Assembly (NCBI GenBank): GCA_028279405.1 | Contig: JANQNU010000046.1 | Coordinates: 1 to 57,399 of the forward strand | DNA: 57,399 bases | Direction of reading: 5' to 3' | Source: Phycisphaerae bacterium | GTDB lineage: Bacteria > Planctomycetota > Phycisphaerae > UBA1845 > Fen-1342 | Notes under the pieces: generated by a model | Told to the model about the DNA's origin: nothing | The model's database searches: none | What the model saw: only the letters and a program-made list of their open reading frames with translations | Position numbers and translations under genes: made by a program | Shown here: piece by piece, positions 16,283 through 19,465 of the stretch | Position numbering within the stretch: the stretch's first letter is position 1 | Layout of the letters: each line of letters opens with the position of its first letter

Positions 16283-16311
16283 TTGACCGCCGGTGTGTCG
16301 GTCGATAGGAT
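16283..16311 (+). promoter_or_regulatory. Sigma-70 type promoter of methionine operon
   Basis: TTGACC (16283-16288) and TAGGAT (16306-16311) are separated by exactly 17 bases. The -35 matches consensus at 5 of 6 positions and the -10 at 4 of 6. Transcription would begin near 16318, just before the riboswitch aptamer, leaving an untranslated leader of about 209 bases ahead of the ATG at 16527. Confidence 0.6.
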
Positions 16312-16319
16312 ACTTCGAA

Positions 16320-16426
16320 CTTGCATCAAGAGTCCCGGGATGCCAATAAACGGTCCCGGGCGGCAACCGAGCGGGTGTGACCCTGCCACGGTGCCGAATC
16401 CAGCCTAGGCGTAGGTATGATGCGGG
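16320..16426 (+). promoter_or_regulatory. SAM riboswitch (SAM-I/SAM-IV clan) aptamer
   Basis: The leader folds as a SAM riboswitch. P1 is GCATCA (16323-16328) with TGATGC (16418-16423), extended outward by G-U pairs. AAGAG follows the 5' strand, as in SAM-I. P2 pairs CCCGGG (16334-16339) with CCCGGG (16355-16360). The core GGCAACC is at 16362-16368. P3 pairs GGGT (16373-16376) with ACCC (16380-16383). The second core GGTGCCGAATCC is at 16390-16401, the counterpart of the SAM-I GGTGC-AATTCC. P4 is CCTA-GGCG-TAGG (16404-16415). The P2 loop CGG (16351-16353) could pair with CCG (16394-16396) as the pseudoknot. There is no obvious kink-turn in P2, so it may be a SAM-IV or SAM-I/IV variant. Its place before methionine genes fits. 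Confidence 0.85.
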
Positions 16427-16504
16427 CGGAGCCGGTTTTCCGGATATCTGTCAAAAACAAGCAGCGATGTTCGCTGCAGCTCACGCCAGCACTGGTTGCT
16501 TTTG

Positions 16505-16528
16505 ATGCCGTGACAGGAGTTGCGGCAT
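16505..16528 (+). promoter_or_regulatory. Start-codon hairpin, likely riboswitch expression platform
   Basis: ATGCCG (16505-16510) pairs with CGGCAT (16523-16528), which includes the first two bases of the ATG at 16527; the AGGAG ribosome binding site (16515-16519) lies in the 12-base loop. Competing pairings are visible upstream: CTGTCA (16448-16453) with TGACAG (16511-16516), and TCAAAA (16451-16456) with TTTTGA (16500-16505). A stable stem-loop, GCAGCGA-TGT-TCGCTGC, lies at 16461-16477. Together they suggest control of translation initiation. Confidence 0.5.
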
Positions 16529-17750
16529 GAAAGAGCAAACGCTCACCCCCTCTGAGATCGAGTCCATCTGTTCCCGGGCCGGGCTGGGTCGTGGCGACGG
16601 CGCCGCCCTGATTGCCCCCATCGTCCAGTCGACCTCGTTCTGCCGCGAGAACATCGGCAGCGATTGCGCCCATCAGTACTCGCGCGTCTCGAATCCCACC
16701 GTCGCGGCACTCGAAGAAGCGCTGGGGCAACTGGAAGACGCTCCGCCTGCCGTTTGCTTCTCGACCGGGCTGGCGGCGGAGACGGCTCTTTTCCTGTCCG
16801 TGTTGCGGCAGGGCGATCACGTTGTGTGCAGCCGCTACGCCTACGGCGGCACGACGCGTCTGCTGCAACAGCTCTTCCCGGCCTTCGGCGTTGAAACCTC
16901 CTTCGTCGATCCGACAGATCTGGCCGCGGTCGAGCGAGCGATCCAGCCTGCGACACGACTGCTGTTCTTCGAGACGCCGGCAAATCCGACGCTCGAGGTC
17001 ACCGACTTGCGCGCGGTGTGCGAATTGGGGCGGGCGGCGAACGTCCTGGTAGCGGTGGACAACACGTTCCTGACCGCCGCCCTGCAGCAGCCGCTTGCGT
17101 TCGGGGCCGATATCTCGGTGTACTCGACGACGAAGTATATCGATGGACACTCCGCCGCCCTTGGCGGGGCGCTCGTCAGTCGCGATGCGCAGTTACTCGA
17201 GCGGATCCGTTTCATTCGCAAATCGACGGGTGGGATCCAAACGCCGTTCAACGCCTGGCTGACGCTGCAAGGGCTGAAGACGCTCCCGTTGCGCCTGGCG
17301 CGGCAATCGGAGTCCGCCGCAACCATCGCGCGCTGGTTGAGTCGTCAGTCAGCGGTGGACGCCGTCTACTATCCCGGACTCGGCAGCGCCCAGCAACGTG
17401 CACTCGCAGCGGCGCAGCACCGCGGTGCCGACGGCGCCGTCGTTTCGTTCGATATTGTCGGCGGGCTCGACGCCGGTCGGACGTTCGTGGAGGCGCTGCA
17501 GTTTTGTCGGCTCGCCGAGCACGTCGGCTCGGTCGAGACACTCGTCACCCACCCGGCAAGCATGACCCACGGCGATGTACCCGCCGACCAACGGGCCGAG
17601 ATCCGTATCACAGACGGGTTGTTACGACTTTCCGTCGGATTGGAGCCTGCTGAAGTGATCATTGCCGACCTTGAGCGAGCATTCGCGGCGTTGAGCGCCA
17701 TTGGTACGGGGTCCGGGAAGGAGGTGGTCGAATGTCCAGCAGTCGGGTGA
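16527..17750 (+). CDS. Trans-sulfuration PLP enzyme (cystathionine gamma-synthase-like)
   Basis: The protein has 407 residues of the Cys/Met metabolism PLP family. The pyridoxal lysine is K203 in YSTTKYIDGHSA, D178 in AVDNTF contacts the cofactor ring, YSRVSNPT near 51 and FETPANPT near 148 are the usual substrate and cofactor segments, and the C-terminal RLSVGLEPAEVIIADLERA is typical. Likely chemistry is replacement of the activated group of O-acyl-homoserine by cysteine or sulfide; metB, metY-like, metZ and lyase members cannot be separated by eye, so no symbol is given. AGGAG lies 7 bases before the ATG. It sits behind a SAM riboswitch and overlaps the kinase-dehydrogenase gene by 19 bases, so a role in methionine synthesis is strongly indicated. 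Confidence 0.9.
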   Translation: MKEQTLTPSEIESICSRAGLGRGDGAALIAPIVQSTSFCRENIGSDCAHQYSRVSNPTVAALEEALGQLEDAPPAVCFSTGLAAETALFLSVLRQGDHVVCSRYAYGGTTRLLQQLFPAFGVETSFVDPTDLAAVERAIQPATRLLFFETPANPTLEVTDLRAVCELGRAANVLVAVDNTFLTAALQQPLAFGADISVYSTTKYIDGHSAALGGALVSRDAQLLERIRFIRKSTGGIQTPFNAWLTLQGLKTLPLRLARQSESAATIARWLSRQSAVDAVYYPGLGSAQQRALAAAQHRGADGAVVSFDIVGGLDAGRTFVEALQFCRLAEHVGSVETLVTHPASMTHGDVPADQRAEIRITDGLLRLSVGLEPAEVIIADLERAFAALSAIGTGSGKEVVECPAVG

Positions 17751-19465
17751 TCGTGCTGAAATTCGGCGGGTCCGTGCTCGCAGATGAAACGCGGCTCAGT
17801 CAGGCCGTGCATGAGATCTATCGTTGGCGCCGCGACGGCTGGCAGGTGGTCGGAGTGGTATCGGCGCTGGCCGGCGCGACGAACGCCCGGCTTGCGACCT
17901 GCGATCGTATTCACGATCGCGCATCGCGGTCATCGACAGCCACCCTGGCAGCGCTGGGTGAACTGGAGTGTGCCGCGTTGCTCGGGCTGCACCTCGATCG
18001 CGCCGGCATCGCGGCTCGTGTTCTGACGCCCGCCGCTTGTGGATTGCGGGCGGAGGGAGACCCACTGGACGCGACTCCGATCGATGTCGACGTCAACGTG
18101 GTGCAGCGTGCCTTGCGCGAGGATGGCGTGGCGATCGTTCCGGGATTCCTCGCGGTGGATCGCGGCGGTCGTACGGTCGTTCTGGGGCGTGGTGGGTCCG
18201 ACCTGACCGCGTTCTTTCTAGCCCAAGCGCTCATCGCTGACCGCTGTCGACTCATCAAGGACGTCGACGGTGTCTACGAAAGTAATCCGGCCCACGAGCC
18301 TGCCGCGCGGAAATATGCGACGTTGGATTGGCAGGACGCCGAACGATTGGAAGGTCGTATCGTCCAGCCGAAGGCGCTGGACTACGCGCGAACATGCAAT
18401 CTCCCGTTCGAGGTAGCGCGCTTCAACGGAACCTACCCGACGCGCGTCGGTGGTGGCCGAACCACGTTTGCGGTCGGGCGCGATGCACCTGCGAGACGGC
18501 GCGTGGCGCTGCTCGGACTCGGTGTGGTCGGTCGTGGCGTGTTTGAATTGGTCAACCAACTACCGCATCTATTCGAGGTCACGGGCATCGCGGTTCGTCG
18601 ACCGGAACGGCACATCGCTGATCCACGGATCGCGCCCTTGCTCACCACGGACGCGCTCGAGCTGGCGTGCAGTGGTGCCGACATCGTCGTTGAAGCGATT
18701 GGTGGTGAGCATCCACCATACGAATGCGCAGTAGCGGCGCTCACGAATGGCGCCGATCTTGTCACTGCGAACAAGGCGCTGCTTGCTGCACATGGGCCAG
18801 CCTTGAGGGCCCTCGCGCAGGAGCGCGGATGTCGGTTGCACGCGTCGGCGGCGGTTGGCGGCGGTACGCCGATCCTGGAGCGGATCGCCGCGGTCGGCGA
18901 GCGGTTGCAGTCGGTTCGGGCGATTCTCAACGGCACGACGAACTACGTACTCGGGCGCTGCGCCACGGGGACGGCGTTTTCAGACGCGGTTCACGAAGCG
19001 CAGGAGTTGGGTTTTGCCGAGCGGGATCCGACCCGCGATCTGAGCGGCGGGGACGCTGTCGACAAGCTTCACGTCATCGCCGGGACGCTTGGCTCGTCGC
19101 TTCTGTCGGAGCGCATCGTGGTCGAGCCGTTGAGCGCTGCGGCGCTGGCGGAGCGCCGATCCGTGGGATGTCTTCGGCATGTTGCGTCCATGACGCGCGC
19201 CGGTGATACCTGGCGCGCGTCCGTGGCGCTCGAGTCGGTCCCGCTGGACGACCCGCTGAGCCGGGTCGAGGCGGAGGACAATCTCGCGTTGCTCACGCTT
19301 ATTGATGGGAGCACGGAGGTTGTCCGTGGCAAGGGCGCCGGGCGTTGGCCGACGGGCGAGGCGGTGGTGGCGGACTTGCTGACGCTCGCACGCCCCGGAC
19401 CCGGGACCTACTCTGTCGTGCCGCGAAGTGCAGCCAACTCGGTCTTGACGGCAGCGAGTTCCTGA
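17732..19465 (+). CDS. Fused aspartate kinase-homoserine dehydrogenase without ACT domains
   Basis: The protein has 577 residues. The N-terminal amino-acid-kinase domain (about 5-235) shows KFGGS at 10-14, GRGGSD at 152-157 and KDVDGVYESNP near 176. The homoserine dehydrogenase part (about 255-577) shows the NAD(P) loop GLGVVGRG at 262-269, TANK at 345-348, GTTN at 401-404 and GFAERDPTRDLSGGDAVDK ending at K445. The classical fusions ThrA and MetL are about 810-820 residues because about 200 residues of ACT regulatory domains lie between the two enzymes; here the link is only about 20 residues and no ACT follows. The enzyme makes aspartyl phosphate and reduces aspartate semialdehyde to homoserine. 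AAGGAGG precedes the ATG, which overlaps the upstream gene by 19 bases, so translation is probably coupled. Confidence 0.9.
   Translation: MSSSRVIVLKFGGSVLADETRLSQAVHEIYRWRRDGWQVVGVVSALAGATNARLATCDRIHDRASRSSTATLAALGELECAALLGLHLDRAGIAARVLTPAACGLRAEGDPLDATPIDVDVNVVQRALREDGVAIVPGFLAVDRGGRTVVLGRGGSDLTAFFLAQALIADRCRLIKDVDGVYESNPAHEPAARKYATLDWQDAERLEGRIVQPKALDYARTCNLPFEVARFNGTYPTRVGGGRTTFAVGRDAPARRRVALLGLGVVGRGVFELVNQLPHLFEVTGIAVRRPERHIADPRIAPLLTTDALELACSGADIVVEAIGGEHPPYECAVAALTNGADLVTANKALLAAHGPALRALAQERGCRLHASAAVGGGTPILERIAAVGERLQSVRAILNGTTNYVLGRCATGTAFSDAVHEAQELGFAERDPTRDLSGGDAVDKLHVIAGTLGSSLLSERIVVEPLSAAALAERRSVGCLRHVASMTRAGDTWRASVALESVPLDDPLSRVEAEDNLALLTLIDGSTEVVRGKGAGRWPTGEAVVADLLTLARPGPGTYSVVPRSAANSVLTAASS

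Follow-up and report, generated by a model that had tools for sequence, protein, structure and literature searches.

Which kind of SAM riboswitch, if any, precedes the MetB-type gene in this stretch of Phycisphaerae DNA (57,399 nucleotides, referred to here as the window), and how might it act on that gene? All features described in the following lie on the forward (+) strand. The gene in question (16527-17750) encodes a PLP-dependent enzyme of Cys/Met metabolism (PF01053, E 1.8e-122), whose exact activity is predicted as to type only, all NCBIfam equivalogs scoring below their cut-offs. It is overlapped by a gene which, according to a domain search, encodes an aspartate kinase-homoserine dehydrogenase fusion (17732-19465). 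This protein is short (577 aa), and since a domain scan detected no ACT domain in it, control by the leader may stand in for the absent allosteric control. The placement before a trans-sulfuration gene and a homoserine dehydrogenase, as claimed by an earlier note on this DNA, is thus borne out. The same holds for the -35/-10 pair which the note had seen just upstream. The promoter-like pair TTGACC-17-TAGGAT (16283-16311) was found once with 0.1 expected by chance, and a similar one (8-11 of 12 matches, 16-18 nt spacing, 4-9 nt 5' of the aligned start) is present in all 25 leaders examined, the best pair per leader being taken without a shuffle control. It is followed by P1, AAGAG, P2, GGCAACC, P3, GGTGCC, P4 and the 3' strand of P1. 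P5, with CAAAAA, lies further downstream and is succeeded by the P6 hairpin, by ACGCC and by CTTTTGATGC; last comes a hairpin that includes AGGAG together with the AUG (16527). While the element assigned to 16283-16426 is clearly present, its end was placed too early. The functional unit reaches approximately 16529, past 16426, and includes P5, P6, a helix between the P4 loop and the tail, a mimic of P1 and the Shine-Dalgarno/AUG hairpin, all of which had been missed.

The anatomy of the aptamer was derived from an alignment (A3) of 25 leaders extending from P1 to the AUG. A covariance model built from ten orthologous-operon leaders (R1) places the aptamer, P1 to P5, at 16321-16455, 71 nt before the start of the MetB-type gene, with 114.9 bits, a match obtained by construction as the window is among the ten building sequences. 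P1, P2, P3, P4 and the two core segments are present in the order given by the earlier note. The 5' strand of P1 together with J1/2 is GCATCAAGAG (16323-16332), of which 16323-16327 pair with 16419-16423 (GCATC/GATGC, with an outward extension possible); P1 is paired in 100% of the 25 leaders. The P2 hairpin CCCGGGA/TCCCGGG (16334-16360) is continuous, lacking any internal loop or kink-turn, both in the window and in its metB relatives, as had been proposed, and five of its seven pairs change on both sides. P3 (16362-16395), which comprises the conserved GGCAACC (16362-16368) and GGTGCC, is 99.6% paired and nearly invariant, the second core segment being GGTGCCGAATCC at 16390-16401. Comparison of the leaders places P4 (CCTA-GGCG-TAGG) at 16404-16415. 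P5 (GGCGGA/TCTGTC, then AAAAA; 16425-16452) resembles the SAM-I/IV model when the relatives are aligned to RF01725, and five of its six pairs covary, as do four of six in P6 (GCAGCGA-TGT-TCGCTGC, 16461-16477). Over the whole structure 96% of the cells are paired, compared to 30-41% when the structure is slid out of register, and in 29 pairs both partners change, where shuffles give 10.3. Every helix is retained in the leaders L122 and L146. The fold of the window aptamer itself beats shuffles with z -2.9. The bases GGCAACC, GGTGCC, AAGAG and AUC/GAU are essentially invariant in the 25 leaders, and the window RNA carries the complete core shared by the SAM clan (AAGAG, GGCAACC, GGUGCC and AUC/GAU in P1).

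The earlier note had looked to the Rfam models for a significant hit. No family, however, reaches its gathering level in the window. RF00162 (SAM) scores 30.7 bits (gathering 44.4; E 4.4e-5; sensitive scan) at 16320-16426 with the full model covered, and RF01725 (SAM-I-IV), the highest of the three models, 38.6 bits (gathering 41.1) at 16318-16468, while RF00634 (SAM-IV) has no hit here at E <= 10. Two further candidates from the sensitive scan, an sR60 snoRNA (20.1 of 50 bits) and Xist_exon4 (10.1 of 100 bits), lie far under their cut-offs and were discarded as chance. In our judgement the near-threshold scores, taken together with the clade-specific model and the covariation, outweigh the lack of a hit above threshold, which that note had named as a ground for refutation. 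Decisive for the reality of the feature is that many genomes carry the same RNA 5' of the orthologous gene and that its pairs covary strongly. The leader thus contains a genuine SAM-clan aptamer and is very probably a SAM riboswitch, in line with the SAM-I-family core strings initially recognised.

The assignment to a class is less straightforward. SAM-IV lacks P4 and has both PK-1 and PK-2, whereas SAM-I/IV has a single uninterrupted P2 and a P4 but no PK-1 (PMC6890682); the missing P2 internal loop is also stated in the part of PMC2864571 considered. In the sequence of the SAM-I/IV RNA 4L81 given in PMC5393176, ACGGAC of loop 3 can pair with GUCCGU of the tail, and we read this as PK-2. We evaluated such loop complementarities in 47 leaders by comparing own with swapped partners. 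Loop 3 shows no excess complementarity to the leader (z = -0.43) and PK-2 is therefore not supported; a 6-nt match of loop 3 to the tail present in the window (GTGTGA/TCACGC) is not common to the relatives. A PK-1-like helix between loop 2 and J3/4 (GCCUC/GAGGC, GUCUC/GAGAC, GCUUC/GAAGC) is, in contrast, evident in most relatives, with z = 5.1 against swapped partners, although modest in column counts. In the window itself the best run amounts to only 3 bp and PK-1 was rejected there. With SAM-I/IV (RF01725; 4L81) the RNA has in common the core sequences, the uninterrupted P2, P4, and P5 followed by CAA. It differs from it in the undetectable PK-2, in the long loop 2 with its PK-1-like helix in most relatives (the window excepted) and in the additional P6, L4-tail helix, P1 mimic and start hairpin. 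With SAM-I (S box, RF00162) it shares the core, P1 to P4 and, in relatives, the PK-1-like pairing, but not the kink-turn in P2; besides, it possesses P5 and the CAA tail, and its score stays below gathering. SAM-IV (RF00634) resembles it in the pocket, in P5 and in the PK-1-like pairing of the relatives, yet an assignment to this class was dismissed because P4 is present, PK-2 gives no signal and the model does not match at the locus. From the variant "SAM-IV or SAM-I/IV" originally suggested, the former alternative consequently falls away, while the latter stands in part, namely with respect to P2, P4 and P5 but not PK-2. Judged by its predicted parts, the combination does not fit any of the three classes described so far. 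It is a mosaic in which P4 and P5 are present and a PK-1-like helix is usual, while the kink-turn and PK-2 are missing. What appears to be new is this combination and the apparent expression platform described below, both being supported by comparison. No planctomycete SAM-I/IV RNA is described in the passages considered of PMC2864571, the one paper in the literature covered to mention both SAM riboswitches and planctomycetes; such sequences may nonetheless have been sighted earlier.

Three elements downstream of the aptamer suggest how the RNA might switch. The P4 loop together with the first 3' base of P4 (GGCGT, 16408-16412) is complementary to ACGCC in the tail (16483-16487). This helix is 93.5% paired with four of five pairs covarying (shuffles 1.5), its complementarity in the 47 leaders reaches z 5.2 versus swapped partners (control, loop 2 versus leader: z = -0.1), and it occurs in the variants GGCGU/ACGCC, GACGU/ACGUC, GGCAU/AUGCC, AACGU/ACGUU, UGCGU/ACGCA and UGCGA/UCGCA. 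Secondly, CTTTTGATGC (16499-16508) mimics P1 in that it is complementary to 16323-16332 over 10 positions with one G-U (window p 0.005; 33 of the 47 leaders reach p <= 0.05). A combined p-value, in which related leaders count as independent, carries no weight here. In these 47 leaders the best mimic site scores 8.3 on average versus 6.5 in dinucleotide shuffles; a good one is missing in some relatives (L039, L135, L172, L181, L182). Since P1 hardly varies, support for the mimic consists in conserved complementarity, not in covariation. Finally, a start hairpin (ATGCCG...CGGCAT, 16505-16528), whose stem covaries in the 25 leaders, presents the Shine-Dalgarno sequence AGGAG (16515-16519) in the loop, with the AUG forming part of the stem. 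Its 5' arm overlaps the mimic site, copies the 3' strand of P1 and can pair with the P1 5' strand.

State energies were calculated with ViennaRNA, which models neither pseudoknots nor SAM. On this basis the mimic state is lower than the P1 state by 3.7 kcal/mol on average in the 25 leaders; the AUG is more open in it in 25 of 25 (0.63 vs 0.26), partly by construction as the pairs were imposed, and the L4-tail helix, which is nested with the mimic helix, arises there without being imposed (0.84 vs 0.00). In the window, unlike most relatives, the P1 state is the lower one without ligand. Here the gap between the states is 1.6 kcal/mol when the exact 10-bp mimic is imposed and 2.9 kcal/mol under the five-pair constraint applied to every leader, and the AUG is open at 0.33-0.35 versus 0.99 across the two states.

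We therefore propose, with a probability of roughly 0.7, a mosaic SAM-I/IV-type SAM-sensing riboswitch which turns off translation of metB, and probably also of the overlapping kinase/homoserine dehydrogenase gene, at high SAM. SAM would stabilise P1 around the conserved pocket. With GCATC taken by P1, the copy of the P1 3' strand within CTTTTGATGC would be left free to enter the start hairpin, placing the Shine-Dalgarno sequence in the loop and the AUG in the stem. Without SAM, GCATCAAGAG would pair with CTTTTGATGC, and the nested helix between GGCGT of P4 and ACGCC would unzip P4, leaving the AUG free. A translational model is favoured because no terminator-like site was found on the + strand within the window leader; transcription termination was discarded on the same ground. 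The OFF direction, the strand exchange itself and the assignment of the L4-tail helix to the ligand-free state are presumed. A broader notion, put forward tentatively and at slightly less than even odds, is that these RNAs form an architectural class of their own within the SAM clan, one that recurs in Phycisphaerae. In such a class a loop-4/tail anti-P4 switching strand would have taken the place of PK-2, and the start codon would be locked or freed through a joint exchange of P1 and P4 with two downstream strands.

The RNA is not confined to the window. Orthologues of metB from Planctomycetota and Acidobacteriota (51-64% identical) are preceded by this leader or by one closely related to it. 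At E <= 0.01, R1 matches occur in 19 of 392 genomes of the phylum, in 53 of 397 of the class and in 5 of 297 of the phylum to which an acidobacterial relative belongs, these counts being lower bounds owing to the strict filters of the large scans. The 47 leaders are distinct R1 matches directly 5' of a metB more than 45% identical to that of the window. The acidobacterial orthologous operon L037 has a canonical-looking SAM-I/IV leader (2268-2380) whose loop 3 (CGGACA) is complementary to the tail (UGUCCG). In L004, from a member of the same order, an apparent tRNA gene, read by eye, stands directly upstream of a 61%-identical metB instead of the riboswitch. Eight weaker matches (L139, L142, L168, L169, L185, L187, L188, L189) display a SAM-I-like, kink-turn-like P2 (GAGGG..CTGGCCC..GA) and also carry a P5-like hairpin and a CAA/CAAT tail; these are possible intermediates between SAM-I and the mosaic group. 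Tandem aptamers in two copies are found in L164 (1501-1631, 1770-1894), L183 (501-626, 715-827) and L138 (1501-1600, 1727-1864), 5' of genes other than metB. The genome of the window contains one clear SAM-I elsewhere (C51:10016-10120, corresponding to L001 1501-1605; 90.7 bits), upstream of an ORF named from its sequence as a putative PAPS/APS reductase.

A second set of related SAM-clan RNAs stands 5' of AAA+ (MoxR-like) ATPase genes (L192, L193, L196, L197, L199), in L199 with a weakly matching vWA-like protein following. Related RNAs also precede an AAA+ ATPase gene in L164/L191, L168 and L186, with no metK seen in the DNA read. At five AAA+ ATPase loci a divergent SAM-synthetase-like ORF follows. 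The two such ORFs scanned match the S-AdoMet synthetase Pfam domains but remain below the equivalog cut-off of NCBIfam metK.

Could the leader be a plain SAM-I/IV riboswitch with an ordinary expression platform, its differences amounting to noise? The RF01725 score close to the cut-off and the alignable P5 and CAA tail would fit, but the lacking PK-2 signal, a loop 2 that measures 7-18 nt in the majority of relatives as against four in the RF01725 consensus, the PK-1-like covariation and the covarying L4-tail helix make this rather improbable. Unlikely as well, if somewhat less so, is that the same SAM riboswitch uses the L4-tail helix as a tertiary pseudoknot of the SAM-bound aptamer in the place of PK-2, and not as an anti-P4 helix. 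The five loop bases covarying with the tail could pair without opening all of P4, and SAM-I/IV and SAM-IV likewise pair a peripheral loop with the 3' tail (PMC6890682, PMC5393176). In most leaders, however, the complementarity runs on into the P4 3' strand over 7-8 pairs, with 95% of cells paired, so that the greater part of P4 could not form alongside it. The helix also nests with that of the mimic and arises unprompted in the mimic state.

A ligand related to SAM, but not SAM itself, could be thought of in view of an architecture departing from the known classes. SAM is nevertheless the ligand we infer: the pocket bases are kept, the genes under control serve to make precursors of methionine or are similar to SAM synthetase, and the presence of SAM-synthetase-like genes in related-RNA operons supports SAM as the signal, so that we regard another ligand as very unlikely. 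Decay of the riboswitch in the genome of the window, finally, would be in accordance with the missing gathering-level match, the lost PK-1-like pairing and at least 20 other genomes of the family without an R1 match. Yet all other helices, the pocket, the promoter-like pair, the mimic and the start hairpin are intact, and in a protein tree the MetB of the window is placed, on an exact branch with weak support, among riboswitch-bearing relatives and apart from same-family homologues lacking the RNA, leaving decay a most improbable explanation. This placement suggests transfer or repeated loss.

SAM-I, SAM-I/IV and SAM-IV have one common pocket while their scaffolding differs. A group which mixes their scaffold parts and adds some of its own offers a natural test of how far peripheral contacts are interchangeable and of how aptamers gain new expression platforms. 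As the alignment reveals both of the alternative states, the switching model proposed here is open to compensatory-mutation tests. Since the present Rfam models miss most of the mosaic group tested, methionine regulation in Planctomycetota is probably under-annotated.
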